DNA of 64,000 nt from assembly GCA_950295325.1 (NCBI GenBank), contig OX485808.1:2854501-2918500 (forward strand). The letters run 5' to 3'. Position numbers and translations under genes: made by a program. Shown piece by piece: positions 14,063-57,140 of the stretch. The DNA comes from Polytrichum commune (taxonomy: Eukaryota > Streptophyta > Polytrichopsida > Polytrichales > Polytrichaceae). The notes under the pieces were generated by a model, which worked only from the letters and a program-made list of their open reading frames with translations, was not told the DNA's origin and made no database searches. Each line of letters starts with the position of its first letter. Position 1 is the stretch's first letter.

Positions 14063-14104
14063 CTTGCGGCTTCCTGCTCGGTTGAGGCCTTCTTTGGGCA
14101 ACTA

Positions 14105-14492
14105 CACTAAATAGGCTATTTAGTGTCAGATGGCGTTCAATGTCACTATGGTATCGTTCCGGATGACACTTCTTACAAGTAAGTTTATCGATCCTGTCAT
14201 GGATGAGTTCGTCCATCGCCCAAAATCCTACCTCCTCTTGTCACCAACCTGTGATGAGATGTTGTCGTGGATGATTGAAATTTGGATGACAGATCACTTG
14301 GTAAGTGAAAGTAATTGCAACACCGTAAATCTATTACCCCCCCCCCCCCCGGCCAAGAAAAAAATAAATTACAAAGGAATTACAAGGAATGACAAATGAT
14401 GTTGGGTTAACATTTAGTGTGGGTGACACTAAACCGAGGTTTACAATTAGTATTGAGCAAGACAATCAAAATCGGTGACACTAAATATCACC
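14105..14492 (+). mobile_element. MITE family A, copy 2
   Basis: A non-coding element of about 390 bp. It starts with the near-palindromic tip CACTAAATAGGCTATTTAGTG, has the TCACTATGGTA and GGATGATTGAAATTTGGATG blocks, an internal poly-C run (about 14338-14350), the AGGAATGACAAATGATGTTG block, and ends at a GTGACACTAAATATCAC tip. It lies just to the right of the 963-bp hAT-like element. Confidence 0.75.
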
Positions 14493-36243: not shown

Positions 36244-36767
36244 TTGGAGGCTTTATTTCTCGAATCTACCCTTGGGCCCATGAACACAAATCATCAGTTG
36301 AGTTATGTTATGACCCTCCATGAACAATACATTAGAATACACTTAGAAGAGTCCATTTTGAATTGACAAGCACACTTAAACAATTTAACTAATTATACAA
36401 ATGTTGGTAAGATCCTCAAGATTATATGCCAACAATAGACAACCATCCTTTATTATTAGCATGAGTTTTGTTGGGGAGTTTGTTGTTTTATAAACAACAG
36501 TTATATGTTCATTCTCGGACGTAGTGCAAATATTTGAATGAAACTAAAATTTAAGTATATTTGGATTCATGTATGAATTTTGGATAATTCTAACTGTCAA
36601 AATATATGAGGAGCCTTTGGGCACATTAGTGGGGGCCCATGAGGTGAGCATAAATACTTGTCCAACAATGTGATTGGACCCTGGGGGGTGAGGGTTAAGT
36701 CTTTTTGGAGCGGACAAGCTAAGATAAGGTAAGAGTAAGATGTCCAAAATAAGAGGAGTTAGAAATA

Positions 36768-37138
36768 CACTAAATATGATATTTAGTGTCATATGGAATT
36801 TAATGTCACTATGGTAACTTTTTGGATAACACTTCCTATGAATAAGTGAACAAATATTGTCATAGACGATGGATGAGTTCATCCATTGGTCAAAACCCTA
36901 CCTTCTCTTGTCAACAACTTGAGATGAAATATTGTCATGGATGATTGAAATTTAAATGAAAAATCATTTGGTAAGTGACAGTTAATGCCACAATGTAAAC
37001 GTACAATCCCCCAATAAATTTACAAGGAATGACAAATAATGTGGGATTAACATTCAGTGTTGGTGGCACGGTACCTTGGTTTACAATTAGCATTGAGCAA
37101 GACAATTACAATTTATGACACTAAATATCATATTTAGT
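36768..37138 (+). mobile_element. MITE family A, copy 3
   Basis: About 370 bp. Left tip CACTAAATATGATATTTAGTG, then TGTCACTATGGTAAC, ATGGATGATTGAAATTTAAAT, ACAAGGAATGACAAATAATG, TTTACAATTAGCATTGAGCA, and right tip GACACTAAATATCATATTTA. It is collinear with the copies near 0.7-1.1 kb and 14.1-14.5 kb. Confidence 0.75.
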
Positions 37139-37290
37139 AGAGCTCGGAGTCTTCATGAAATTGAGTTTGCACTTATGTGAAGTTATCGTATCAAAGGAGT
37201 ATATATGAGCTTCAAATATTACTTGGCAAATGGCTATGGGTTTGATCTAGGTTTTCGAATTATTTCACACTATTTACATGTTTCATAAAC

Positions 37291-37412
37291 TAGAAGGAAT
37301 GACAAATAATGTTGGGTCAACATTTAGTGCTAATGACACTATACCTCGGTTTACAATTAGCATTGAGCAAGACAATTAGAAATGATGACACTAAATAATC
37401 ATATTTAGTGTC
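37291..37412 (+). mobile_element. MITE family A, right-end fragment
   Basis: Only the last 120 bp or so of the family is present: GAAGGAATGACAAATAATGT, then TTTACAATTAGCATTGAGCA and the ATCATATTTAGTG tip. Confidence 0.6.
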
Positions 37413-38073
37413 CTAAGCAAGATTACCACTAGGGGTTGCAAGTAGTTCACTAGATTGTCACTAATCCATTCTTATCAATTGGCTTTATCAAAGCTTAGTT
37501 GAGTTCATCCTTGAGGCTTCACTATAGTTTAGTTTTGTCTACAATTTGCAATAGTCTAGTGCCCATCATGAAACTTAGATCTAGGAACATTGAGGAGGTA
37601 TTCTGAAGCCCATGTGTACTTTAGGTTATCTTGTAACAAAGTAGCCATCTCCTTTGGATATACGACATGGCTTTTTATACACGTTGGTTGACATACACTA
37701 GGTTGCAAAATTTACACAAATACGATGGTTGGCGAATATGGACTACAGAACATTCCAAGTTGTCGTTGTTGCGGTGTTGCTTTTGTTGTAGTCGTTTGAT
37801 GTTTTTGTCCCCAAATGTGCACATCCCTTTTTTAATTTTGGACTAGTGGTTTGTTCAAATCTACTTAAATATTACTTATAAAAAATAGGTAGATTTGATT
37901 TATTTTGACAGATCGAGATGTGCTAAAATAAGCTTGATATGTAGTATACCAAAATAGGTTTTTATTCACTCAAATCTAGACACTACCCCCCCCCCCCAAG
38001 CATGCATCACAAGTAGAAATAAATTATTTATGCTACTTACAACCAATGGGATATTTACTAAGGGACCAAGTCC

Positions 38074-38612: not shown

Positions 38613-39107
38613 CCAAGTCCCAACACAAAGTCTCATTAGATTCAAGGATTTGTCTAATGTATGTCCAATTTAATCATTTAAAGCTTAAATTTACCAAGAA
38701 TGTCATTAATCTAGATGAGGACCTAACTCACCCCTTCATGAGATAAAATATATTTTGAGCTTAAATACAATAACATGAAGTTGAGACAATGCATGTTGCT
38801 CATTACCACTCCACACATATACCTTTCCTTTGGCACACATATTCTCAAGAGTGTGAGGTAACCTACCAACACATAATCTTCACATAGTTCAATTTAGTTG
38901 CACGACACTAGCTTGAAGGCTTGGCACATGGAACTTTAGCATGTGTGCTTTAATCCTATAAACATCAATCTTTAAGTCATTACATTCTCCAATATCTTTT
39001 GATTGGGTGTCATCTTATGGAATCAAAACAAATACCAAGGATGCGTGACTGGCAAATTTTAGAACACTCGATGAGTCATCCTCATATATAGATGAACTTC
39101 AAAAATT

Positions 39108-39232
39108 TACAAGGAATGACTAATAATGTGGGGTTAACATTTAGTGTTGGTGGCATGGTACCTTGGTTTACAATTAGCTTTGACTCAGCAATACAATTAG
39201 AATTTATGACACTAAAGAATCATATTTAGTGT
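39108..39232 (+). mobile_element. MITE family A, right-end fragment
   Basis: The right-hand 125 bp of the family: ACAAGGAATGACTAATAATG through TTTACAATTAGCTTTGA to the ATCATATTTAGTGTC tip. It is the second such right-end-only piece within 2 kb. Confidence 0.6.
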
Positions 39233-39439
39233 CCTTAGCTAGATTACCACTAGAGGTTTCAAGTAGTTCACTAGATTGTCACTGATCCTTCACTTCCTTC
39301 CTTGCCCTTACTTGCAACATACTAATGGACTGCACGCTCTTGCATAGTTCACGCTAAGCACCTGATGAGTTTGCGTGGACGATAGAAGAGAGTGATGTTG
39401 TATGCGTCGGTAATTAGTGCGCACCCACACTACACGGAT

Positions 39440-40275: not shown

Positions 40276-40655
40276 ATGTATAACACTACACAACTATGTT
40301 AGTACGTTGTTTACGGAAAATATTATGGGCCACACTTTAAGTGAGGAAACCCACACAAAAAACATTGGGAGTATCACTATGGTTGCATGTCATATTCAAA
40401 CCCCCATGTTATATAACATAGATTGTCTCCGCTAGATTATTTCTATTCCATGGTGTAGAAGAGTGTGCATCTAAGAGACTTCCAACAACGTGAATAACAC
40501 TATATTCGTTAAATTGAGACTTTTTGGGCATTTTGAGACATTCACAGAAATAAGAACAAGGATAAATGGAACACATATTGGAGAAAGTTGTAAGATGCTA
40601 ACACTTTGAAGCGGGTGTTTAGAACAAGAACCCCATTAATAACTCATATTTGGGA

Positions 40656-40935
40656 TTGTTTAGGGTGGGCAATCCAAACCTTAGGCCAAGTTGAATGGGA
40701 AATCTTAAAACATTCATATTATCGCACAAAAACTTGTATGAATATGGTTAAGGTAGGGTGGGCAATCCAAACCATAGATCATATTGAAGGGGAAATATGT
40801 GAACCAATATAATATAACATGCAAAATATTCCAAACTCATATTTGTGATGGTTTAGGTAGGGCAATCCAAACCTTAGACCATATGGAAGGGGAAATCATG
40901 TGACACTTATATTATTGCAAAGAAAACATACAAAG
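40656..40935 (+). repeat. Subterminal tandem repeat of giant element (3 units)
   Basis: Three units of about 90-105 bp share GGTTTAGG/GGGCAATCCAAACC, then a CATATTGAAGGGGAAAT-like block. The core GTTTAGGGTGGGCAATCCAAAC-like segment is a worn relative of the 22-bp palindrome found deeper in the element. It is next to the left end and may be a transposase-binding zone. Confidence 0.6.
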
Positions 40936-41037
40936 TGTGGCATGTAAAATGCATAGCATGCTAACACCACACATCCATTGGATAGTGCGACCCAAAATGT
41001 TCTTGCCTATGGCCCACAACCCTACGCCTACTATGGC

Positions 41038-41832
41038 CTATCTAGCCTCGGAGACTACCTCTTTTTCTTTTGCTTCATTTTCTTTTGTTTTTTTTTCTTT
41101 TGCCTCTTTTTCTTTTGCTGCGGCTTCTTTTGCTCGCATTGCTTCAACATTCCTGAAAATCTCCGCCCCGCGACTATAGCCATTCTTGGGGTGACTGCCA
41201 ACAATAACACATTTTGGATTCCGTCGGCCGCCCGAATTATACGACGAAGAATTCGAATACGATGAAGTGGACTGTCTTGCATTTCTGGTCATGGAGTAGA
41301 AACGCTCCAACTCGATGGATGCACTAGACCGCATAGGTTTACGGGTGAGAGCAACCTGCAATGCGTCAATGCAAGACCACATGTGTTAGTTTAGGGAGGA
41401 AGACCCAAACGTGTCACACGTTCATTTTTTAAGTGCGGGATGATTGTAATGCGCGGTTAACCATGTTTGGGGGTTCACCTTGTCACCGGGGGCGTTCCCG
41501 TCGGAGTCGGCGAGGAGGGGCAATGCGTCCCGCAAAGGAATAGGAAGGGTTCCACTCTTCGTTGGCCGAGCGTCCATCCGCAGCCGCCGTTGAGGTGTAA
41601 TACTGCCGCCGGGCCGAGAGGGGGACGTCCGGACGCATTTGCGATTTATGCCCTTGAGCGGTGACGGGGACGGAGATCGCCGGAAGATTTGCTTGGGTGG
41701 GGGGCTATCGACGACACTGGCGTCAATAGGCTCCTTGGAGTAGTCTATGGTGGACGCGGCATCGTAGACGGTCTCGTAGAAGAAGCTCCCCAAGTTTGAT
41801 TCGCTGACGATCTCAATCGACGGCTCCAAACG
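41038..41832 (-). CDS. Two exons of an unrecognised protein
   Basis: Minus-strand exon 41832-41479 follows an acceptor (TTGCCATCAG) and ends at AAG|GTGAAC. Exon 41355-41038 follows TTGACGCATTGCAG. Joined, they encode a Ser/Pro/Arg-rich segment (SPSPSPLKGINRKCVR), then SIELERFYSMTRNARQS, a Ser/Tyr stretch, NPKCVIVGSHPKNGYSRG, and a Lys/Glu-rich tail, ending at TAG. I do not recognise a domain. The exons lie just downstream of the FCP1-like frame. They may be a separate gene or the 3' part of a longer transcript of this cluster. Confidence 0.5.
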
Positions 41833-41941
41833 CTGATGGCAAAATTAAAACAAACAAAACCCAATGGGAGGGGGAGCATGTGAAAATCGATATACATTTG
41901 AGGCATAATATATCACACACAATGGCACACCATGTAGTATC

Positions 41942-42754
41942 TCAAATGAGTTTATTATATTTCGCGTGAGCGTACAACTCTCTGTACATATAGTCCTTCG
42001 GATCCATGTATCTTTCGCCTATCGGATTACAACTAAGGAACCGGGGCACGGGTAGTCCGCTCCCCACGAGTGTTTGAATGTACTTAAGTAGGTCTAACAA
42101 AAAGCGGTCTCGGACCTTCTCGACCGTCCACGTCGGGCAAACTATGAAGTTCGAGGTCGGGTTCAAAATGTTCTTGGAAGCGCTGTCGTCCACCATCAAC
42201 GTGTTGTCACGGGTGGGGCGAACGTCGTAGGGACAGCCGACCATGGTCGGACGTTGGTCCCATACGACTGGCTTCAAGACCTTAAGAAATTGGTTTACGG
42301 CGGGGTTGTTGGGCTTCTTCACAACCCTGCCCTCGGGGGTGTATAACGTTCTACAAGAATCCTGTCCTAGGACCAAGCACGGGGGTTGGAGTCCCTTGAA
42401 GATGAACTCCACGACGGCCTGGGTGGTCTCGGACTTCATGGAGCTCCACACGATCACCCACCATTTGGATAGGGCGACCTGTAGGAAGCGCCGAAGCCAC
42501 GGGCGGAGGTACACTAGCTTGTTTTTGATGTACGCGGGGGGATCATCATAGTTGGCGTCCTCGGGCTTGCAGAAAGGCACCGTGGGGACCCTCGGACAAT
42601 GCACGCACTGGACAAGGACCCCGTTGAGGTCTAGCACCAGGAACCGGGTCTTGGGAGGCAAAGGTGGTGAGGGCAAAATCGGGGGGACCACCGCGCTGTC
42701 CTCCACACTCCTCGGAGAGGATCGGTGGGGAGCCGCGACGCTATGCTCCGAACC
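41942..42754 (-). CDS. FCP1/HAD phosphatase-like protein (main exon)
   Basis: An FCP1-homology (HAD superfamily) domain, related to phosphatases that act on RNA polymerase II tails and other phosphoproteins. The open exon reads RFLVLDLNGVLV (motif I), WWVIVWSSMKS (motif II), a KPVVWDQ region and NTLMVDDSASKNILNP (DD motif), ending with TGA. Motif I is DLNG rather than DLDG, so the second catalytic Asp is Asn. The first in-frame ATG is not upstream of the domain. A good acceptor (GTCGCCGCAG) at 42755 suggests an earlier exon supplies the start, and a GTG at 42706 is unlikely to be used. It is the most intact gene of the minus-strand cargo. Its role there is unknown; substrate targeting or gene regulation are guesses. 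Confidence 0.75.
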   Translation of the reverse strand, partial: GSEHSVAAPHRSSPRSVEDSAVVPPILPSPPLPPKTRFLVLDLNGVLVQCVHCPRVPTVPFCKPEDANYDDPPAYIKNKLVYLRPWLRRFLQVALSKWWVIVWSSMKSETTQAVVEFIFKGLQPPCLVLGQDSCRTLYTPEGRVVKKPNNPAVNQFLKVLKPVVWDQRPTMVGCPYDVRPTRDNTLMVDDSASKNILNPTSNFIVCPTWTVEKVRDRFLLDLLKYIQTLVGSGLPVPRFLSCNPIGERYMDPKDYMYRELYAHAKYNKLI

Positions 42755-43206
42755 CTGCGGCGACGAGCGAGAGAAGGCGGACGAGGACTATGTTATGCTA
42801 TGTCCATCTCAAGCAGAACGGAAATTTTGTGCAAACACAAGAACAATTGGACCATTGGTGGCAACAAAAACATACAAGGCGAACAACATACATTGGGACA
42901 CGGATGCAAACATATGGGCGTCAAAAATAATAATTTTATTTTTACAAATCTCTATGTACAATTTGATGGGGGGGGGGGGGGAACCGCGGTGAACGAGGGC
43001 ATTCACACTATCCTAATTGTACATCTACAAAATTGGTTGCGCGCCGCCAAGGTCGAGCGTAGTCAAATGCAGGTGAGACGAAGGGGATCGCGGGGGGCAC
43101 GTTGGGGGAGGGGGAGCAAGTGTAGAGCATGGGGGGGGGGCAGGGGGTGTGCATTTCCTCCTAGCAAGGGGAACACGACCACGCCAACAAGACAATGACC
43201 CAGGAA

Positions 43207-43620
43207 GTTTGGGTCGGTCGACCCAAACTGGGGAGGGCTCAGTGTATTACCTCGCCCTGGTCATGTCTCGACGATGTGGAAGCCTCCACCGTCCCCGCTG
43301 CCCCGCCTCTCTCGCCACCGCCTTCTCCGACGACGTCAGGAACCTTCTCCTGCAAACGATCGGCATCAGGCCCTTGTCCTAAACCAATCCCCGCATGTGC
43401 ATCATGCATGCGTTCATCGATTTGGTTAGGAGTAGAGGTATCACCAGGCCCTTGCAGGCCTTCAACATCTAGCATGGCCGTGTCTAGTTGACACCCATGT
43501 TGGTCAAGGGAGGACTGCGCTGCAACGGGGTTTGGGTCACCCGACCCAAACTGTCCTGCATCTGGAGAGGGCCCTTCGGACACTACAGTGGATGGTGGGT
43601 TTGGGTCGGTCGACCCAAAC
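43207..43620. repeat. Three 22-bp palindromes around exon 3' end
   Basis: Copies of the GTTTGGGTCGR palindrome lie at 43207-43228 (just inside the following intron), 43530-43551 (variant centre) and 43599-43620. The last two are inside the coding exon, where the palindrome is read as FGSTDPN or FGSGDPN. Confidence 0.85.
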
Positions 43621-44815
43621 ATCCTGGGGTCGTCCGATTGGTGAGGGGGCGCCATGACTATCGGGGGCCGAAGTGGTGGAGGGCCCAAAGGGGAGGAGGC
43701 TCCAGAGACGCGCCAGATGTTGGGGTCATCCACTTGTTGGACCGGCGCGTACGGAACTTGGTGGGGCCGCATCAAGTGCTGGGAGCTGAAAGACGATTGC
43801 GGCACAGGCTGCTAAGGGATGCTCTACGGAGGGAAGCCGGGGGGCAAGTGCGGGAAGGAGCTGGAGGGAGCCACCACCAAACCTTGCGCCCACATTCCTT
43901 GTATCACTTGTGATATCAATTCGGCGTGGGACGGAGGTTGGGCCATCGCCCTCTGTCGCTCTTGCTCCAACAGGAGAGCCCTCAGCTCTGCTACCTCGTT
44001 CCGCATTGAGGGCTCTTCAGCGGCAGCCTTCTGCAGACGGACGCGTTGCTCCTCGTCCCTCCTCATCTTCTCGTTCGCCTCCTCCACAGTCAGGACCTCG
44101 GGCTTCACCCTAACCATGCCAGCGAACGCTGTCGGGGACGGGGGATCTGATCTGAGCCGTTTGGCGAGCTCAATATCATCATCGTCCTCGCTGCTTATGG
44201 CAATGGTCTCCTCCACGGAGTAGTCGCCATACAGCTTCTTCCCCTTCAACTTCCTCCTCTCCCTGAACGTGGCGGTCGCGTCCCTGGAGTACATGTCCCA
44301 TGCATCGTCCACAGTCAGGACGGGCACGAGCTTACTCTGCGGGGTTGCCGCCCGCATCGCCTTCTTCCGTTGAGGGGCTTCGGATTGTTGCGTGAAGCCC
44401 GTTGCCCCTTCCTCGACGTCGCCTTCCTTCTCCGCCTCCTCGTGTTCCTCTTCTTCCTCCTCCTCCTCCTCCTCAACCTCGCCACCTTCTGTGCGGGACA
44501 GATTGCCCGGATGCAACCCGACCAGAGGTTCGGGAACTTGGGTTGTGGCCCTCATGGCCATTTCCTCCGGGTTGATGCGCCTCACCCTATCAAGAGGGTT
44601 TTCGCCACCTTGAACAACCTCGTCGACGTAGCTACCCGGGATCCAATCGAGGATGTCCATCTTCTTCGCCAGCGATTTCTGCACCTTATAAAATGGCAGA
44701 TCGCCATCCTCTATGTAGGAGTATATATTCAGCCCCGACATCTACACAATCCAAGTTATAGGGAAATTAGAATTTGTCGAGGCAGTCACATAAACAAGAC
44801 TAAGTGAAATGTGTA

Positions 44816-44981
44816 GTTTGGGCCGGTCGACCCAAACTTGCAAAGAGCCTAGTTTGGGTCGGTCGACCCAAACCTGCAAAGAGCCTAGTTTGGGCCGGTC
44901 GACCCAAACCTGCAAAGAGCCTAGTTTGGGTCGGTCGACCCAAACCTGCAAAGAGCCTAGTTTGGGTCGATCGACCCAAAC
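44816..44981. repeat. Palindrome array, 5 copies, 36-bp period (intron)
   Basis: Five 22-bp palindromes at 44816, 44852, 44888, 44924 and 44960, separated by a constant 14-bp spacer (TGCAAAGAGCCTA core). The array lies wholly within the second intron of the ParB/methyltransferase-like gene. One copy has the perfectly symmetric centre CGATCG. Confidence 0.95.
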
Positions 44982-46431
44982 TGCTTACGAGCTATAGAAA
45001 GTCACTTACCATAGCAGCATAGACAGGTTTTGAGCCTCCGAAGACGTTGAAGATGCAGTCCCCTCTCCTCGTCAGTGTCCTCATCATTCTCATGTAAAAT
45101 TCCATCCGCAGTTCATCTGCAAGATAGCTCGCTTATTTAGCCTCGTCGTAGAGGCTCTTGTTGGCACCCAACCCTTCTGGAACTTAGAAGAGTTTGTCCA
45201 TCCGGGATATAGGGTGGTTCGGAACCTTCAGCAACTCCGCTTTGTACACGAAGTACAAACACAAGACGTTGACGAACTTGGTCTTCTTGTCCTTCAACGT
45301 CGTGTAAGCCCCCTCCGCCGGTGCGGCGATGTAGTGAGACTTGGACACTGCATACTCCGGCTGCAGTTTCCGGACAAGCTCGTACACCTGCTCCGCCCTC
45401 CTATCCTCGACTATCCAAAGCCAGATATCTACCTCCCTGAACTTAGGGCTTGCATAATCGACGAACTTAGTTAAGAAGGGGTCGTAGAAGAGGGTGCTCA
45501 TCGTGCCCTCAAATGAGTTTCCAGGAATATTTCTAAAATCAATCATCCCAAAAGGAAAACGGTCCCTTGCTTTCGTCCTTATCGCCATTCTGGCGTCTTG
45601 ACCTGGCCAGCCCTGAATTTTCAAAGGCTCGAAGGTGACAAGGTTGAAGTAAGCGTCCCCTTCAAACTGGACAATCTTTTTTTCCTTGATGAAGTTCGAG
45701 AACGCACGCGCTGTGTGATCCGGAAGCGCCCGGTTCTTCCCACCCTTCACCATCTTGGCCCGCAAGAAGTCGTCCCCCGCTTCCCTTATTAGAGCCGCCA
45801 TGGAGGCACTGGTGAACTTATATTTATCTTTGAATGCTCTCCAGTTAGCCTCATGAACCTCGCCGTCCACGACAATATTCCTCTCTGGCACCAATTTATG
45901 CAGCTCCTGCACGATAGTCGTCTTCTTTTTCCTATTCTCCGTCCATTCCTTCATGGTGTAGCATGAAGGAACGAAGGATTTGGGCTTTACGAAGACAATA
46001 TTCGGGTGCACCCAGCACGTCTTGGCCGTGGGTGCCACGTGCAGGATGTGCGATGCCGCCTTCTCCACCTCCGTCTCTGACAGCCCTTGAAGAGTTCTAA
46101 AGAACTCTCTCACGAGAGGCTTCATCTGCTTGAAGCGCGAGGCCAGGCTGAAGAAAGCACCAGTGTCGGGGTCGATCAAATCCCCTGTCTCGTGCTTTTC
46201 AAACACGGTTTTCCACTTCCTCCAAACTGAGTCCGATGCTGTAATCAAATAAATCTCCCCCTTGAGGTCGCTGTATTTCTTCTGCTTGTGGCTCGAATTA
46301 TCAATGGAGGAGAATTTGTTGATCATTTGGTATTTGAAATCCTGCACGTGAACAAAACATAACATTTGAATGCGTGTTAGATAAGTACATGTGATTTCCA
46401 AACCATATCATGACCAACATCTACAACAAGA

Positions 46432-46597
46432 GTTTGGGTCGATCGACCCAAACTAAAAAAAAACACAAGACTGCAACAGTTGTTTGGGTCGATCGACCCA
46501 AACTAAAAAAAACACAAGACTACAACAGTTGTTTGGGTCGATCGACCCAAACTAAATAACAAGGCTGCACCAGGAGTTTGGGTCGGTCGACCCAAAC
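46432..46597. repeat. Palindrome array, 4 copies, about 48-bp period (intron)
   Basis: Copies at 46432, 46482, 46531 and 46576, with spacers of the CACAAGACTGCAACAG type unrelated to those of the other arrays. Three copies have the fully symmetric CGATCG centre. The array fills most of the first intron; the rightmost copy ends 4 nt from the splice donor. Confidence 0.95.
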
Positions 46598-48227
46598 AAT
46601 ACTCACCTCCCACTTGGGATTCTTGTCCTTCGCATTCTCCCTCTCCTTGGGAGGCCTACCATAGAACTCCCACACCTCCCGCGAGGCCATGATATTCCTT
46701 ATCTAGGAAGCTTGGTAGGCCCTCTTCTTGTTTCCCATATTGAAGTACCGGGAGATGTCGCTGAGCTTGGTCTCGTCGTCAGACCACACCACCAGTGCCT
46801 TCCAAACCTTCAGCTTTTCCTTCTGATTGTTGGGATTGTCCCACTCATTCATGAGTTGGATTTTCTTGGATGCCTCCACGCTGTGTTGGCCGTCTATCAG
46901 CCAAAAATCACCCTTCTGAATTGTTGGCCACATTTCAGGTGTAGGCATTTTCTTAAGACCCTATGGCATCACTACAATCGTTTGCCTGTCGTCTTTAAAC
47001 TGCTCGCAAACGATCTGCGCGATTATCCAGTCAACGTAGGCGTCCTCCTTTGCCCGGACACACTTCTCCGGTGGCGCTAGATGGCACTGGCTAATGTTCA
47101 CGTCGAACTTGAAATCCCTGCCCATGAAAAAACAGTGGGAGCATTTCGTCGTGAAATTGTTCACGATTTTCTGCAGCTCCCCTGCATCCACCTCTTCGCC
47201 GGGCTTCGGTATGTGCAACTCCGGTGAGACTGGCTCGTCAGTTATCACAGATGACTCTCTCGCCCTCTTGGATGGAGTTGTTTGACGGCTCCCAGAAGGT
47301 GTAGGTGTCTCACTATTCGTAGGTGTTTGGGAGGGAGTGGTCCTACGCGAGTCAGCCGGTACTGGTAGCGGCATCCTCACCGATTGAGGTCTTGACGACC
47401 CTGCTCCTTCCTCTGTGGGAGCTTTCCGCCTCACAGGTTGCTGTGATTTGGTTTTGCTTTGCAGGCCCCTGTTCAGCACGGTTATTGCATGTTTTAGTTT
47501 TGTGAACCGGCTTGAGACCTTGGTATTCGATGTACTCCCATCGATAAATATTGTCTCCGGCTTGATAACTTCCGGTTCGACACAAGACTCTCTTGCATAG
47601 AGTGCGTCGAAAGGCTCGGAGAACTGGTGCATGAACATATGCGCGTTCTGCACAGCCGAGTTCTCGAGGATGACGTCGGTGTAGTCTCCAAGAGACTGTA
47701 CCGATGCGACCTCCCATCCCGTAATAGTCGCCCAGGTGTGTTTCTCCACGGTTCTCACCTTCACAACAAAAATCATTTTGTATGTTGAGGCTTTGACTAC
47801 TTGAATAGACCAAGCGAGACAAGCCCGTCCTTAGGGGAATAGGAGTCATCCTGCAGGGTTTCGTGCTCCTGCCACAACATGTCCGGCGCAGGCATGAACC
47901 ACCTTTCGCCGGGTCTTTTCTTTGGAGCCATCTGTAAGAAAATAATGTGCAAAGTTAGTTTCGGTCGTTCGACCCAAACATCTACGACATGAATAGGTTT
48001 AGGTGGATTGTGTATTTATATATTTCAGCATCATTTGTAATGATAATAAGAATGTTATGATTATTGGGTGGATTTGCATTTTATATTGTTTGTGACATGT
48101 AGGATTCCTTGATACTTTTCCTTGATACATTCCTTGATTATTATTTTGGGTTGATGTGAATTTTATATTGATGCAAAAATCATGGATTTCTTTATGAGTT
48201 TATAATTAGAAGACTTTGTTTGGGTCG

Positions 48228-48476
48228 TTCGACCAAACATGATGCTTTGTGTTATATTTGGGTCGTTCGGCCCAAACATGATGCTTTGTTTTGTGTTTGG
48301 GTCGAGCGACCCAAACAAGGGGCTGTGTTTGGGTCGGTCGACCCAAACAAGAGGCTGTGTTTGGGGCGGTCGACCCAAACAATAGGCTGTGTTTGGGTCG
48401 GTCGACCCAAACAAGAGGCTGTGTTTGGATCGGTCGACCCAAACAATAGGCTGTGTTTGGGTCGTCTCCCCAAACT
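48228..48476. repeat. Palindrome array, 8 copies, mostly 32-bp period (5' region)
   Basis: Eight copies spaced mostly by 32 bp, with AACAATAGGCTGT/AACAAGAGGCTGT spacers. They lie 0.3-0.55 kb upstream of the start of the ParB/methyltransferase-like gene. Flanking copies are variants (centres CGTTCG, CGAGCG, CGTCTC); central ones match the consensus. A lone worn copy lies at 47958-47979. Confidence 0.95.
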
Positions 48477-48689
48477 GTATTATTTTAATATATTTTTTAA
48501 ACTTGGCATGTAGCATATACAATGCTTATGCATTGTGTATGCTACAACACCGTGAATCTACAAACACATATTGGTTAAAATAAAACACAATACCTTTCAA
48601 AGATGTTGTGCAGACAATTTGGAGTAGAGCAGGTTGTTCTTCCAATAATTCTCAATATCAAACAAACTGTGAGAAAGTTCAATGAGAAA

Positions 48690-49010
48690 CTTTCAAATAA
48701 GTATCAACTCTCTCAAATAGCTCTTGGATCTCTCAACCAACTCCTGAATCTCACACAGAACTACTGAATCTCTCAAAAGACTTCGAAATGTCTAAACCAA
48801 CTCCTGAATCTCACACACAACTACTAAACCTCTCAAAAGCCTTCGAAATGTCCAAACCAACTCCTAAATCTCACACACAACTACTAAACCTCTCAAAAGA
48901 CTTCGAAATGTCTAAACCCACTCCTGAATCCCTCACAAAACTACTGAATCTCTCAAACGACTTCGAAAACTCTCAAACAACTCTTGATACTCTTAAAGAA
49001 CTCTTGAATT
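48690..49010 (+). repeat. 60-bp tandem repeat (about 5 units)
   Basis: Units start near 48741, 48801, 48861 and 48921 at exactly 60 bp, containing CTCCTGAATCTCACACACAA and CTCTCAAAAGACTTCGAAAT, with decayed units on both sides. Since 60 is a multiple of 3, a plus-strand frame reads a 20-residue repeat (KPTPESHTQLLNLSKAFE). Whether it is translated is not supported; it could equally be a leader or spacer repeat. Confidence 0.85.
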
Positions 49011-49741
49011 TCACAAGCACTCCTAAAACTTCCAGTACAAACACCTGGACCTCCCAAACAGAAGCTTTATCTACTACACAATGTTCTACTAACTTCCTTC
49101 AGCACTTTCCAATACTCTTCAACACTCTTTTGCTAACTTCCTTCACGCTCACGCTCTAAAACCTTCCTCCGTATGTTTCTGTTTCTTTCAAAACTCTTCC
49201 TAACTTCTAAGATTGCACAAGGGCTATTCTATTGAAGAGCAAAAGAAAGGAGGGAAAAGAAGATGCAGAAGAAAGCAATGAACGCGGGAGAATGAAGGGT
49301 TAACCTACACCAAGCCTGATTCACCGCGGCGCTTTGCGAAAGCGGCGCTTCAGGAGAGGCGGCGCTTCGAAGCGAGGCGCGGAGAGAGAGAGAGAGAAAG
49401 AAATGAGAAATGCGACGGTTGGGGTTTTGTTTACCTCGGGCATTGGCCCCCAACCGCATGAATAGGGTGCCCACAGGATTAGGGCACCCACGGAAACAGG
49501 GTTACAGGGAACCCTAAAACCTAAATCCTAACGCTTGACTCTAAACCCTTAGCGGGCCTACCTCTTTAAGAGTACATAGGCTATTTGCCTCATAGCATAG
49601 GTTGCATTCTACAATATCAACTTTTTGTAAGTTGAAAACCTTTTGAGTTTGTAAGTTCCTCGCCAATTGCCTTCAAAACTAATTTTTAGTAGGTTAAAAT
49701 CCTTCATATCTTTTAATGTTGTAGGTTTTAAAATCAAAATT

Positions 49742-49815
49742 TGAGTACTAAGTGGGATCCTTGGCAGGAATTGAACCTGGCTAAGCCTTTCACCACGTTT
49801 GAAGGCCAAGGATTA
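49742..49815 (-). ncRNA. tRNA-like Pol III B-box segment (SINE head candidate)
   Basis: The minus strand contains ATCCTTG...CAAGGAT acceptor-like arms, a D-arm-like CCTT...AAGG hairpin and a T-arm-like block with GGTTCAATTCC (good B box), but no anticodon arm. This resembles a degenerate tRNA-derived head of a SINE rather than a functional tRNA. The body and 3' end of such an element are not defined. Confidence 0.35.
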
Positions 49816-50157
49816 ACCAAGTCTTTTTTAAAGAGTTGATTATAAGTTATGAAAGGTTGCTAAAATTCAAATGAGTTTAAGGGTGAAAGTTCTCACCATG
49901 TTCTCATTCAAGTTCTACTCTTCCTGCAAGATATAGCCTAAAGATATGTACTTAGGCCAACTAATTTCCCAATTTGAAGAAGGATGAATGGCTAAAATCC
50001 TCTCTTTTAAAAAAAATTTAGGCAAAATTTCCTAAATGTTTTTTATCACATAGGTTGATATCCTATGTTTTTAAATTGTCCATAGGCTCTTTGTCCTACA
50101 CTTTCAAAATTTTATAGGCTAAGTCACTAATTTTGTAGGCTGCATTTGTTTTAATCG

Positions 50158-50398
50158 GTATATTCGTTAATTTGGGATTTTTTCGGCATTTTGAGAAAGT
50201 TACAAATATAAGAACATGGATAAAATCGCACGTACATTGGAGAATGTTGTAAGATGCAAATACTTTGAAGCGGGTGTTCATATCAAGAACGCAATTAAGA
50301 TCTCATATGAAGATGGTTTAGGTAGGACGACCCAAACATTACACTATGTTGTTGTGGTCCATATATTAATTTGAGAGAAGAGAAAATCTCAAATTAGC
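50158..50398 (+). mobile_element. Small nested relative of giant element (left plus right ends)
   Basis: About 180 bp resembles the giant element's left arm (TATATTCGTTAATTTGGGA, ATAAGAACATGGATAAA, TTGTAAGATGC, TTTGAAGCGGGTGTT). It is followed directly by a segment like its right end (CCATATATTAATTTGAGAG, AAAATCTCAAATTAGCAAAT). The left-then-right order in the same orientation is what a short internally deleted family member would show. The tips are eroded. Confidence 0.6.
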
Positions 50399-50919
50399 AA
50401 ATTTTAGGGTTTAGGTTCTTTTGGACCCTGCTCTAAACCTTTATTAGTTTTTTCAAAAGAACTATGGAGTACCCTAAGGTGCTACATAAAATGTGTTATT
50501 CTACAAAACTAACCATTTATATAGCCAGCGCATTCTTACAACAAAACTTTATGCTAAACTAATACTTATCCCCTACTTACATGACACCATACCCTAAATT
50601 TTCGAAAATCATTGAAGGCATTGGTTTCTCTTTTGTTTGAGCATGTTAGAAAAACCATATAATTGCGTTATATTTAACGATGTAACCATTCACATTTAGT
50701 CTTTACCAATGATGCCAACAATTCACACGATATTGAATGAAAAAAAAAGATTACCCACACCCCCCAACATGTGGAACAATTTAGAATAATTGAGTGTGGA
50801 GCCTAATAAATGAATACCTTTCCCAACTGCATTTTGCAGGGTTTAGGAGATAGGAGATAGGGTTATAACATATTAATCTATCCAATGTCAATGTATAACA
50901 TTGTCTTACTCGTGAGAAG

Positions 50920-51427
50920 AGTCTTATAGGAAGGTTATAGTGAAGACGATGTTGATTATGTTAATTTGTTATTTGAGACGTTTAAACACGATATATTGAT
51001 TGGTCGTGTGTTTATTCAAATAACATGAAATATTGTGGATGTTAATAGGGGCTAGGGGTCCAACTTTGGATGTTTCGCTCACTTTAGGGAATCACATATT
51101 AGTCGCTAATAAACCATCGTTCATGATGTATTTAATATATGAAATGTGATGTAAAAGTAAATCGGAGAAGCACAACATCATGTTGTTATTCATTGTTCTC
51201 TCCACGTGTATTAGATAATGGAGGAAGATATAACAGATATTGTTTGCATAATATGAAGAAGAGTCTAATCGGAAGGTCATAGTAAATACAATCTTGATCA
51301 TGTTAATATGTTATATGGGACGTTTAAACATGATATCCTAATTGGTTTTGTATTTAGTCAATGCGTATTTCATGTTGTGGATGTTATAAGGGTTTAGGGT
51401 CCAATCTTGGATGTTTTGCTCTCACAC
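50920..51427 (+). repeat. Diverged direct duplication, 165-bp copies
   Basis: Two copies at about 50920-51083 and 51253-51427 share AAGGTTATAGTGAA/AAGGTCATAGTAAA, GGACGTTTAAACATGATAT, ATGTTGTGGATGTTA and TTGGATGTTTTGCTC-type blocks, offset about 333 bp. Non-coding. Confidence 0.6.
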
Positions 51428-51577
51428 ATTAGTAAACTTGAAGTGAACTTGAGGATGGATTCAAGTAACATTAAAAGATTGAACTAGAAAGGGACATTGG
51501 TAGTTAGTATCCCCTTAACAATGTCCACATACGTTCGTCATTGCCACTCTTGCATGCGAGATAATAGAGCAAGGTTC

Positions 51578-51599
51578 TAGGGTTTAGGGTTTAGGGGGG
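51578..51599. repeat. Telomere-like TTTAGGG stretch
   Basis: About 2.5 units of TTTAGGG. Matching shorter runs occur at 50402-50414. The plant-type unit supports the lineage call. Confidence 0.6.
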
Positions 51600-52334
51600 A
51601 CAAATAAATAATTCTATTCATCATGACAATGGCCTCAAGCCTTGGAAACTCTCTCATAATTGCAGCCTCCAAATGGCCCAAACCCCACCTAAATAGGTTT
51701 ACACTTGAAAGCATTGAATGGAGTTGTGTTTGGGTCTACATATTGGTTAAAATATACCTTGATGATACTTGAAAAAATTAATGTGGCCGCCACCCTTCCT
51801 CCCAATGGCGTATGTCATATCCACACAAAACAAAACAAATAGATTAAATAACATAGACTAAGTCATATGACGGCTGGGGTATCAGAGGGGCATTGATAGA
51901 TGCGCATTTTTCTACTATAAACAGAAAACGGGGAATTATGTCAGGAGGTTTGAAATAACCTCTGCAAGAGAAGAAGGCGGGGAAGGCATCCAATGACTAA
52001 GTCTGGGAAGCGGAGGTGGATAATATAAAGGGGCGCACCCCCCAAAAGTCGGTCCTTCTTTTCTCTTCTCCCGCTGTCGAATTCGTAGAGAGAACTCTTA
52101 GTAAGAGCTGTACTTCAAGGTTCGTGCATGCTGCCGTTCATGAGCACTTATCCATAGCATGCAAGTTCATGAGCACCTATCCACAGCATGCAAGCCCACC
52201 GTGAACTTTGCAATGAGCTCAAATTCAACACACCACGCAATATCCGCCGCATTATACGCCGGATTTTGTGGTGTACTTGGGCGAACCTTCACCTCTACAC
52301 TAGTGTTGGCGGGTTTTGAGTCTGACCCTATGAG

Positions 52335-53337
52335 GTTTGGGTCAACCGACCCAAACCTGTCCACTAGTGTGTTAGGGTTTATGTCTGACCCTTAACAGGT
52401 TTGGGTCAGTCGACCCAAACCCCAACCCCAGTGTGTTAGGGTTTTTGTCTGACCCTTATCAGGTTTGGGTCGACCGACCCAAACCTGTCCACTAGTGTGT
52501 TAGGGTTTATGTCTGACCCTTGTGAGGTTTGGGTCGGTCGACCCAAACCCCTACCCCAGTGTCTTAGGGTTTTTTTCCTGACCCTTATCAGGTTTGGGTC
52601 GACCGACCCAAACCACTACATGGTGTGGGTGGATGTACTCTTGTGAGGTTTGGGTCGGTCGACCCAAACCCCTACCCCCAGTGTGTTAGGGTTTTTTCCT
52701 GACCCTTATCAGGTTTGGGTCGACCGACCCAAACCACTACCTGGTGTGGGTGGATGCACCCTTGTGAGGTTTGGGTCGGTCGACCCAAACCCCTACCCCA
52801 GTGTGTTAGGGTTTTTTCTTGACCCTTATCAGGTTTGGGTCGACCGACCCAAACCCCTACCTGGTGTGGGTGGATGTACCCTTGTGAGGTTTGGGTCGGT
52901 CGACCCAAACCCCTACCCCAGTGTGTTAGGGTTTTTTTTTCTGACCCTTATCAGGTTTGGGTCGACCGACCCAAACCCCTACGTGGTGTGGTTGGATGTA
53001 CCCTTGTGAGGTTTGGGTCGGTCGACCCAAACCCCTACCCCAGTGTGTTAGGGTTTTTTTTCTGACCCTTATCAGGTTTGGGTCGACCGACCCAAACCAC
53101 TACCTGGTGTGGGTGGATGTACCCTTGTGAGGTTTGGGTCGGTCGACCCAAACCCCTACCCCAGTGTGTTAGGGTTTTTTCCTGACCCTTATCAGGTTTG
53201 GGTCGACCGACCCAAACCCCTACCTGGTGTGGGTGGATGTACCCTTGTGAGGTTTGGGTCGGTGGACTCAAACCCCTACCCCTGTGTGTTAGGGGTTCAG
53301 TCCGACCCTTATGAGGTTTGGGTCGGTCGACCCAAAC
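52335..53337. repeat. Palindrome array, 17 copies, alternating orientation, 121-bp unit
   Basis: Seventeen copies of the 22-bp palindrome. For most of the array, copies with centre CGGTCG (starts 52527, 52648, 52769, 52889, 53011, 53132, 53252) alternate with copies of centre CGACCG (52463, 52592, 52713, 52833, 52955, 53076, 53196), which are exact reverse complements. The composite unit is about 121 bp and includes GTGTGTTAGGGTTTTTTCC and TGGTGTGGGTGGATGTACCC spacers. It ends 200 bp upstream of the DUF7869-like gene. Confidence 0.95.
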
Positions 53338-53536
53338 CCGCACCAAAATAATTTCTGGAACTTGTTTTGGACTTGCACACAGTGTTGGGAGTTCACATTG
53401 TAGTCGTGTTGGAAATGTCTTCATCCTCGGTGTCCCCATTGATCATGGTATCTTGCATTTTCCGATATTTGATTCTTTTGGACCCTTACATTCTTTCCAT
53501 GTGTGTTGAGGTTTCATGTGCATGTGTGTAGGCGCA

Positions 53537-56500
53537 ATGGAGGGAGTTGGTGGAAGAGGGGATTCCTTCTCTGACAACATGGGCAACACCCAATCTACGT
53601 CTGGGGATGAGCTAGACATTGTCAGGGAGGATAGTTTTGATGACAGTGCAGATGAAGGTGACTTGGGGAGTCCTTCGCCATCTGCCCCTTCTTGCCCCAC
53701 TGTGGAATGTGCTGGACTTTCACGAGCTTCATGGGTGAATTTGGATGTAGTACTTGTTAATGACAGTGGAGTTGCTGTGGCGGAGGGTATTTGTCGTAAC
53801 ACACATCCACAAGATTGCATTGATGAAAACCCCCTTGGCACCGAGGACGTTGGAGTTGTTATATTGGAATCACTCGTACATTCCGAAGTGAATCCAACTC
53901 ATAGGTTTTCGTTGCGAAGGTGGCCGTTGAGGAATGTGACAATTGAGGGGGTTAGCTTGCATGACCATGAGCGACGACACATCCAAATCCAACAGGAGCT
54001 CCAAGCAAACATTTGGCCACGCAAAGGCCTACGGAAGTACGATACATTGGCACATCCTACTCCGTCTGCAAATGAGTGTAAACGTCAAAGGTTGCTTTGT
54101 GAGGAGTCCATTAGAGAAGTTGCCACAAAGGATTGTTGTGTACATCGTTGTTGCCAATTGTTCCCAAGGGATAAATTGAAGGCCATCCGCGAGGAAATGT
54201 GGCTTGGAGATTTCCGTCTAAGATCCACCAAAAAGCTTGATGTCCATAGGGCGATACATGTGAACGGAGCGGGTCGCAAGGTCATCACCCTTGAGAGCAT
54301 AGACGTGTGTTGTACGGCATGGTACATCATTCACGGTGTGTCAAAAGCGGAATTTTATAGACAAGCCACGTATGCCAAGGAAGGCCGCCGGTCCCGTCAC
54401 CATGGGAATACGGGCTTAAAGAAACCAAGGGAAGCAACGAGACAAGCAACCGTCACTCTGGCAACCATCATTGTCCCCCTTGCCGATGCAATGCCGCACA
54501 AAACACGCACACTCGCAACCGGTGAAAAGGTTGTGGAGAAGGTTCTTCCTACAAGCACGAAATGGAAAGACATATTGTTGGACGTAAACGCAGTTGGCGA
54601 GAAGACTGGGTTGGACCCTATTTCGTTGTCGAAACTGAGTGCAATAAAAAAATCTCACTTTAGCGAATACATCACAAAAAGACGAGGCGACAAATTTGCC
54701 CGTTGTTCTAAATGCGAGAAGTTGAAACGCCTTCGAGATGCACACACGATGGGGACAGAGTCATATGCCGCACATCAAATGAACTATTTCAAGCATGTGA
54801 ACATGCAAGAGGCACACCGTAATGATTACTACACAAATAGAGCTTTGTCCATCTCTAGGCCTTTGGAGGTCCTTTCAATCATCCATGACAAAATGGACCA
54901 TGCCAAAACAACCTCACCATGTTTTGCAAATCGAATAAAAGCCACGGACGGCCTTTTTAAGCTTCCTGTATCGGTTACAGGTGATTTCGATAACAATTGC
55001 ATTGCATTACCTAAACACAAATTTGTGCTTTAGGTTTGTACTTGGGGCCATAGATGTACACCATGTGAATTTTTTGGTGTTATAGTTGAATATTAAACCA
55101 TTGGGTTGGCTTTGCAGGGATGATTGCACATGGACATGGTGATGTCAAGTATGCTCATTATGCTCTTGATTTGTATCCGGCGGATTCAAACCACACGATA
55201 GGGTCATTTGCAAAGCTTTTACGTGATTTGGAGAAACCGCCGTCCTATTCATCAAGATTGTTATTTGAAAACTCGGGATCAACACCTCTATATGAAGCGG
55301 TCTTGGATGGAAGAGATGTATGCGTGCACTCCTTGCCGGAGCCACCAAGTGAAGATGTGATTGCCAATAATTTGCCCCCAACTCTGCGTGTCCAATTGGA
55401 TAATTGTACGAAGGACAATAAAAGTAGATATGTTTTTGCATATTGGTCGTTGTTGGTTGCGAAAGGCATTTTCAAGGAGATTTTTGTGTCCTTTCTATTG
55501 GTAGGCCACACGCACGACGATATCGATGCATCTTTTGGGCGGTGGAGCATGAAGTTGCACGAGGAGGATTTTCCAACAATCCCATTGTTGATGAAGTCGT
55601 ACATGGATTTGGAGAACATTCCCGTCATCCCCCATATGATCGAGGAGGTTCCAGACTTCAATGCATTCATAGAACCGTATATTCGAAGCGGAGCTCACCG
55701 ATTGATCGGACATACGAAGGCACAACAATTTCGGTTCTACGTGCGTGACGATGGTATCCCCGCCATGCAATACAAGTTGTTGTGCATGTCACAAGACTGG
55801 AGCCCGCCGGAGGGTCTCCTTGTATGGCGTGTTGATGGGGAGGGAAGGACGATGTTGCCTGACGGAGAGCCTAAGCCTTGCAAACCAATACCCATGAAGA
55901 ATTTGGAGGACATTTGTAAAGGCATATCAGGCTTCATACAATATTGGGAGAGTTTGAGGGTAGCGGATGTTGGTGGATCGTGTTGGCTTTGTTACGGAAG
56001 TTGGATACAATATTAGACACGTGTTCGTGGCGCTTTGGCAAACCTTCATCAAGATACACCCCTTACTTTAAAGCATGGGTTTTGGCCACAAACACGTGTC
56101 AATGTACAAGCTTCGGAGGCTAGTCTTTTGGGAAATGGAGAGGTTCGAGAGGAGTTTGATGTGGACGACCATTACGTGGGGCCTGCTAGTAGTCGTCCGC
56201 CACCATTTTTCCGCATTGCAGTGGATTGTCATGAAGGTTATATGCTCATTTTGCGTCCTGGAGATGAGACATATGCAAAGCCAGTGTGGGTGGCAAGAGC
56301 TTTGTCCAATCCAAATTTTGTAACTTCCAGCCCTCATTTTCGACAAATACAAGTAGAGTACTACCGACCGACAGCACGGAATGAAGATGTTGTTCGGCAT
56401 TATACAGGCTGGGAACAAACCAACACTTTCGGTGGAAGGTGGATTCTGAGCACGGTCCATCTTGGGTAGATACAGATTCCATATTCATAGCATGGAAACC

Positions 56501-56605
56501 ACGGAAAAATCATAGTGGATCAGTGTCCATCCCTCAAAAGCACATAACTTTTGCAAAAGACAACCTTGCTCGGATCGCAGAAGAAGCAACCCACGTTGAA
56601 TGAGA
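53537..56605 (+). pseudogene. DUF7869-like putative transposase, lightly decayed
   Basis: Two exons: 53537-54980 and 55118-56605, with intron 54981-55117 (ACAG|GTGATT ... TTTGCAG|GG) joining SVTG to MIAHGHGDVK. The C-terminal half carries the DUF7869-type core: LRVQLDNCTKDNKSRYVFAY, VSFLLVGHTHDDIDASFGRW and a final SIFIAWKPRKN. I read this family as an RNase H-fold, DDE-like transposase, with D in LDNC and D in DDID as likely acidic residues; that activity is inferred. A CxxC pair (ARCSKCEKL) in exon 1 may bind zinc. An in-frame TAG (56014-56016) and a one-base shift near 56430 break the C-terminus. An ATG at 53516 is also possible, but TGTGTAG before 53531 looks like an acceptor. The protein would bind the element's own ends. 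Confidence 0.75.
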
Positions 56606-57140
56606 AGTTGGTAGGATTGTGTTAGCATGATTATAGTGTAATATGTAATTCGACAAATATATATTACTTATATGTGTGCTCCTCAAACTTGGGGCAAAGT
56701 TTGGGTAGAGCTTGCGAATGCTATATTGTTTGGGGTTGGATGAATATCCATTTACTATATTTCAATACAGTTGTGAAGTTCATTTTTTTTATTAAGTTTG
56801 GGACTACATTTTCCATTGAAGAAAAATGCATTTATTGCATGCACTTTGTATGTTGCAATGTCTATATTTTATTGACCATGCTAATAATAGAAATCATTTT
56901 ATATGTTTCTTGGGTGAAACTAGTTTGGAGTGCTCTATCCAAAGTGTTTTTGTTGATGAAGTTGGTGTTGAGTGCTCTACCATATGTGCTTATGTCCACA
57001 CATAATAGATTTGGGATATTAGAACATATAATATATTTGAGATTGTTCGCAATATAGTTTCGGAACACGGAATGTTGTTTGATCCATATATTAATTTGAG
57101 ACTAGAGAAAGTCTTAATTTAACGAATATAGTGTTGAATA

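Follow-up and report, generated by a model that had tools for sequence, protein, structure and literature searches.

A worn copy of an abundant giant, probably Sola-like DNA transposon in the moss Polytrichum commune carries a ParB-like accessory gene and palindromic candidate binding sites

A 64,000-nucleotide stretch of contig OX485808.1 of the moss Polytrichum commune (hereafter the window, to whose positions all coordinates refer) harbours a worn-out copy of an abundant giant DNA transposon of 16,640 bp. The explanation that we favour, at a probability of about 0.66, is that of a decayed, high-copy, giant cut-and-paste Sola-like transposon with an accessory protein acting through palindromes. 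The putative transposase gene of the element and the exons of the accessory (cargo) protein lie on the + and - strands respectively, in the divergent arrangement that the original prediction had described.

This prediction had placed a single element at 40497..57134, flanked on both sides by TGAATA as a 6-bp target-site duplication (TSD). Self-comparison of the window confirmed inverted ends identical at 26 of 27 positions, and a 19-bp end pattern (at most three mismatches) matched the window at the two ends alone (shuffle mean 0.03). The limits were refined with a sample of 31 copies, consisting of the window copy and, from contig C1, ten further copies with their flanks and the ends of twenty more pairs; TSD lengths from 2 to 10 were tried at each. 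A terminal A/T pair adds one base to the terminal inverted repeat (TIR; AACACTATATTCG...CGAATATAGTGTT) in 31/31 copies, the window copy included, and a 4-bp TSD lies directly outside this pair in 30 of them, 4 bp being the longest match in all 30. Because of this recurrent 4-bp TSD, the element spans 40496-57135 and its TSD is GAAT. The single element thus stands, with limits shifted by one base on each side, and TGAATA is indeed present at both ends but is not the TSD: on each side its outer T and A are one host base and one terminal base of the element. The sole copy lacking a 4-bp TSD is a 36.9-kb end pair. Duplicated 4-mers are AT-rich, with C or G preceding in 23/30 and following in 22/30. 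End pairs up to 44 kb apart are also flanked by matching TSDs, presumably owing to nested insertions.

A search of the 407.8-Mb genome (64 contigs) with the 27-mer end (up to three mismatches) revealed 1,053 forward and 1,054 reverse places, and none for the backwards-read control. Among the matches listed, contig C1 has at least 90 exact end places and 34 adjacent +/- pairs less than 60 kb apart, 21 of which are spaced by 14-19 kb, compared with 0.13 expected for random placement. All but one of the ten additional copies measure 14-18 kb and share the gene order of the window copy; their aligned pieces show ~73-99% DNA identity to the window, with lower values in tandem arrays. In 27537k, which belongs to these nine, a deletion runs from exon B into exon C of the cargo gene, and the tenth copy, of 4.8 kb, misses its middle. 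Searching with the transposase exon that encodes the DUF7869 domain gave 1,495 candidates, of which the best 132 were scored, all at least 95% identical. The matches lie on seven large contigs (C1-C7), which, taken with the moss relatives, agrees with a host of the Polytrichaceae (n = 7).

The genome search with both ends, proposed together with the original prediction, therefore returned other loci sharing both ends, the TSD and the same genes, in agreement with one giant transposon carrying divergent transposase and cargo genes. The other proposal, to look for an empty site, was answered in part. One copy sits inside an exon of a related transposase and so provides a paralogous empty site: when its flanks are joined over a single TSD copy, they align with intact exons through the junction at 71-73% identity, and this arrangement scores narrowly higher (165) than those with any other number of TSD copies tried (160 and 160). 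An empty allele of the window locus was not found among the other loci compared, and no search went beyond those loci. That the two ends are separate miniature inverted-repeat transposable elements with ordinary host DNA between them gains something from a short derivative with the same ends nested inside the element. We give this reading almost no credence and rejected it in view of the spacing of the end pairs, the 4-bp TSDs around 30/31 pairs and the nine 14-18-kb copies with matching gene content and order, one of them internally deleted; the window element is one unit. No TSD of the nested derivative (50155-50405) was clear by eye.

The prediction of a transposase was borne out by a Pfam match of exon 2 to DUF7869 (PF25273, E 7.3e-40). 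The protein has a predicted RNase-H topology with an invariant, putatively catalytic aspartate triad (DDD) formed by D309, D434 and D474/D476 (P0033 numbering). The open frame of exon 2 comprises 308 amino acids (aa) in the window copy versus 504 aa in most of the best 132 of 1,495 rows. Middling matches of the transposase model, for its N-terminal part to KOW/Tudor-like and for its C-terminal part to BAH/Tudor/MazF-like folds, were not relied on, and a PDB sequence search with exon 2 returned nothing useful. Proteins of mosses such as Ceratodon purpureus and Physcomitrium patens share the domain, the named matches being 41-50% identical to exon 2, and carry only the names hypothetical, predicted or DUF7869 protein.

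On the opposite strand, the cargo exons appear to encode one protein of ~1,660 aa that combines a ParB-like fold, a methyltransferase-like region and an FCP1-like phosphatase; we infer their joining from splice sites. Cargo and transposase exons of the window copy are given as read, with frames unmended, and several are broken. Comparison of the predicted structure with solved structures detected a ParB N-terminal fold in exon A. In Foldseek, the methyltransferase-like region weakly resembles MTA1, CcrM, M.BceJIV and MboIIA, with E values of 0.2-0.9; no match fell under 0.001. Neither Pfam nor NCBIfam assigned the cargo exons to a ParB or methyltransferase family, and PDB sequence searches with exons A, B and the phosphatase exon gave nothing useful. 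The phosphatase exon matched Pfam NIF at 7.5e-14, with scores of 52.1 and 58.0 bits against a gathering threshold of 21.8. The predicted FCP1-like phosphatase was therefore recovered; of the predicted ParB/methyltransferase gene, the ParB-like part is upheld by predicted structure and the methyltransferase part weakly so.

Ratios of non-synonymous to synonymous substitution (dN/dS; Nei-Gojobori, ten copies) were 0.02-0.13 for cargo exon A, 0.04-0.21 for B, 0.05-0.15 for C and 0.08-0.34 for E, and 0.11-0.34 and 0.10-0.19 for transposase exons 1 and 2. The ranges leave out pairs whose dS was at most 0.08 or too saturated to compute, and those sharing fewer than 60 codons; a large part of the dS values lie above 1, where their magnitude is unreliable. 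By these ratios, the cargo protein is under purifying selection. Copies 14644k and 26567k differ by a dS of 0.11 in transposase exon 1 and of 1.51 in exon B, which argues that transposase and cargo halves recombined between subfamilies. Mosaics of this kind, with the two halves from different subfamilies, were noted in L017-L020 and other copies.

The element carries a repeated palindrome, GTTTGGGTCG-NN-CGACCCAAAC, with 10-bp arms and a free 2-bp spacer (lineage I; GTTTGGGTCGNNCGACCCAAAC). The window element holds 26 core sites (GGGTCGNNCGACCC), against 0 in the remaining 47 kb of the window. The nine larger copies have 22-38 apiece and the 4.8-kb deletion derivative has none; a count that avoided double counting gave the same totals. 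When up to three mismatches are allowed in the arms, ten elements contain 356 sites, 268 of them perfect. Spacer and flanks vary among 180 distinct perfect sites while the arms are constant, and arm changes in sites with up to three mismatches are almost never compensated (1 compensated versus 93 uncompensated). This pattern fits a dimeric DNA-binding protein and does not fit an RNA hairpin, which was rejected. In each element, the stretch between the divergent genes holds 12-28 sites, intron A-B 2-6 and intron B-C 2-7 (0 in 27537k, which has lost that region). One more site separates exons D and E, 1-2 fall within exons, and the transposase intron has none.

Database relatives of the cargo protein often show intron read-through tails. 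These fit translations of palindrome I in 8 proteins, TTACGGACG-NN-CGTCCGTAA (II) in 9 and TTACGAACG-NN-CGTTCGTAA (III) in 7; no protein shows two types and 24/48 show none. The tail patterns were written after viewing the tails and are descriptive, not an independent test. None of 120 control proteins (65,071 aa) matched; these are transposase relatives and hence a weak control. The motif LRTxVR, which fits II and III alike, was not used for typing, and only a type II variant would account for the tails of P0137, P0140 and P0141. A tree of 37 exon-A sequences (one FastTree run) placed types I, II and III in three separate groups without exception, with splits of 0.999-1.000; typed rows made up 9/15 of group I (two known from DNA), 8/15 of II and 7/7 of III. 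We infer that each of three ParB clades has its own palindrome. Palindromes I and II had no match in viral contigs, and III occurred as single sites on four of them.

For its placement, the element was set beside published accounts. Sola transposons are described there as having a DDD transposase, a 4-bp TSD and a length of mostly 2-9 kb, some exceeding 15 kb, and as occurring in Physcomitrella (PMC10741241). The moss element has the same TSD length and DDD; the part of the Sola description seen mentions no such accessory protein or palindromes, both features of this element. In the brown alga Ectocarpus, the 21.5-kb Sola-1 element Sola1-1_Ec32 bears, opposite its transposase, a gene joining a ParB-like and a methyltransferase domain; the authors raise the possibility that proteins of this kind bind the transposon that encodes them and modify it, and cite green and red algal cases (Iyer 2011; Petroll 2025) (PMC12477816). 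Both are giant DNA transposons; in the moss element, the ParB fold encoded opposite the transposase is clear, but the likeness to methyltransferases is weak. Compared by description, the moss element differs in its host, an apparently fused FCP1-like phosphatase, a degenerate methyltransferase motif and candidate binding palindromes; the passages seen on Sola1-1_Ec32 name neither phosphatase nor binding sites (PMC12477816).

Since the 4-bp TSD and DDD fit Sola and the ParB-methyltransferase-like gene fits Sola1-1_Ec32, a wholly new superfamily unrelated to Sola seems distinctly unlikely. It would be favoured by DUF7869 being unnamed in the literature searched (partial coverage) and by the comparison with Sola going by description only; the giant size and the reported occurrence in a moss again fit Sola. 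The earlier statement that no named superfamily matches the element is thus not supported. CACTA/EnSpm transposons have a 3-bp TSD and CACTA as first bases; the ends here start AACACTAT and the TSD is 4 bp, at odds with this assignment. Polintons (Mavericks) have a 6-bp TSD and genes for a protein-primed polymerase B, a retroviral-type integrase and capsid proteins. An integrated virus or Polinton-like element might be suggested by the large size, by the presence of more than one gene and by a ParB-like protein of the sort characteristic of prokaryotic replicons. With a TSD of 4 bp and no polymerase, capsid or retroviral-type integrase in Pfam scans of the main open reading frames (ORFs), such an origin is very improbable, and the Polinton reading was rejected along with the 6-bp TSD.

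In the Sola-like reading, the DDD DUF7869 transposase of the right half would recognise the 28-bp ends and insert the element with a 4-bp staggered cut; ends and TSDs are observed, and both the chemistry and the recognition of the ends are predicted from the fold. The left half would encode, on the opposite strand, one large accessory protein with ParB-like, degenerate methyltransferase-like and FCP1-like phosphatase parts. As a dimer, this protein would bind the 22-38 palindromes across the divergent promoter region and its own introns, coat or mark the element DNA and in this way govern its transposition, its expression or the state of its chromatin; possible targets of the phosphatase are proteins of transcription or of chromatin. 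The palindromes are most likely binding sites of the ParB-like protein.

Several points weigh against this explanation. Binding of the palindromes is deduced from sequence, and the palindromes of lineages II and III (TTACGGACGNNCGTCCGTAA, TTACGAACGNNCGTTCGTAA) were derived from peptides, not read as DNA. The likeness to Sola goes by published descriptions of Sola. Structure prediction for the ParB/methyltransferase part gave a model of low overall quality (predicted local distance difference test 62.9, predicted template modelling score 0.31). The CTP-binding box of ParB is GERR; it was found in 0/48 homologs, and DGQHS stands at its position in 33/35 exon-A proteins. Motif IV of beta-class N6-adenine/N4-cytosine DNA methyltransferases is (D/N/S)PP(Y/F/W); 8/10 exon-B homologs have DF(R/C)x(I/F)P, and the canonical form was absent from the methyltransferase region, its lone instance being in the proline-rich exon C/D of P0123. 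The nucleophile motif of FCP1/NIF phosphatases is DxDx(T/V); all ten copies holding the region have DLNGV, which keeps the first Asp and departs from the motif, and a Met precedes it in 1/10 copies (L013). As GERR is absent and the methyltransferase and HAD motifs are altered, enzymatic activity may be lost. Finally, among the first 100 listed of 9,231 perfect palindrome sites genome-wide (backwards control 0), two TIR-paired copies account for 61, and 16 are found no more than 17 kb from a lone listed TIR. The other 23 stand apart from the listed ends of the family, at 438 kb (one), 463-478 kb (12) and 2,154-2,160 kb (10) of C1. Around 22 of these 23 sites (L077-L079, 24.6 kb), tblastn detected no cargo or transposase match. 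The palindrome, originally called private, is real and confined to the element within the window, but full privacy across the genome was rejected. Either other elements carry the same sites or something else reads the palindrome.

The outside sites bear on an explanation that we consider somewhat unlikely, in which the palindromes serve a host factor or the transposase as binding sites, or are spreading short tandem repeats, and have no connection with the ParB-like protein. It would account for palindrome arrays at loci lacking detectable cargo and for much of the window's palindrome set being a tandem array. It is harder to reconcile with arms that stay constant while spacer and flanks vary, with every full copy keeping sites in the intergenic region and intron A-B and none in the transposase intron, and with a palindrome type that changes with the ParB clade.

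At the outside loci themselves, L077 (C1:2153500-2160500) contains palindrome arrays, one mostly 32-bp spaced, beside long ORFs; three of its five ORFs longer than 180 aa were scanned and gave no Pfam match. An insert in the 610k copy (L009 2276-3793) recurs at L078 2938-4547 and L079 5050-7325, ~12 kb apart on C1 and with ~97-100% identity in the longest pieces, and one recurrence directly adjoins a palindrome array.

Going beyond the accessory protein acting through palindromes, we raise tentatively, at somewhat less than even odds, that a eukaryotic transposon has its own ParB/parS-like self-recognition. The accessory protein would spread from dozens of palindromes and mark the element by binding or through its modified methyltransferase or phosphatase, and co-evolution of protein and palindrome would have produced three or more specificities in related elements. 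If so, other elements with the same palindrome would use the mark in trans. In bacteria, parS is the site partner of ParB. The moss system resembles this pair in its ParB-like fold and in palindromic site clusters on the DNA encoding the protein, and differs in residing on a eukaryotic transposon, in the free 2-bp spacer, in DGQHS instead of GERR and in that no ParA was named in Pfam scans; a partition role is not implied. New here are the phosphatase fusion, the palindromes with 10-bp arms and free 2-bp spacer and, by our reading of the tails, clade-specific palindromes; the literature searched (partial coverage) yielded neither this element nor the fusion or the palindromes. The findings suggest that ParB-methyltransferase-type proteins are present in a land plant and have acquired a phosphatase, and bear on how a ~17-kb element reaches about a thousand ends per orientation genome-wide. 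For the Ectocarpus protein, whose binding sites are unnamed in the part of the account available (PMC12477816), the moss element supplies a precise candidate site and three putative natural specificities.

Table 1. Features of the window copy (window positions; strand as +, - or unspecified).
Feature	Position	Strand	Basis
Left TSD, GAAT	40492..40495	.	4-bp TSD in 30/31 copies
Left TIR (AACACTATATTCGTTAAATTGAGACTTT)	40496..40523	+	Self-comparison, genome matches, copy ends
Subterminal direct repeats, left-end region	40641..40927	+	Window self-comparison
135-aa ORF X1, uncertain status, similar in other copies, C-terminus variable	41425..41829	-	ORF list; tblastn
Cargo exon E, FCP1/NIF-like phosphatase domain	41945..42787	-	Pfam NIF; tblastn position
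Palindrome sites between exons D and E and inside exon D	43212..43625	.	
Cargo exon C/D, acidic, proline-rich; interrupted	43251..44741	-	ORFs; tblastn
Palindrome sites, intron B-C	44857..44986	.	
Cargo exon B, helical and methyltransferase-like regions; interrupted	45010..46341	-	ORFs; Foldseek; tblastn
Palindrome sites, intron A-B	46437..46602	.	
Cargo exon A, N-terminal PH-like and ParB-like domains; frame broken	46607..47931	-	Predicted structure; tblastn
Palindrome sites upstream of cargo gene	48298..48417	.	
Nested, decayed short derivative of the giant family (left ~183 bp, right ~50 bp)	50155..50405	+	
Tandem palindrome array upstream of transposase	52291..53340	.	Self-comparison
Transposase exon 1	53516..54982	+	tblastn from copy L014
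Transposase exon 2 (DUF7869); broken	55120..56600	+	Pfam; tblastn
Right TIR	57108..57135	-	Self-comparison, genome matches, copy ends
Right TSD, GAAT	57136..57139	.	4-bp TSD across copies

Outside the element, the window contains a long tandem array at 3292-4840, with a period of ~72 bp and ~85-89% identity between shifted copies. A dispersed repeat occurs in both orientations in the flanks, at 731-1102, 14098-14490, 36763-37471 and 39098-39291.

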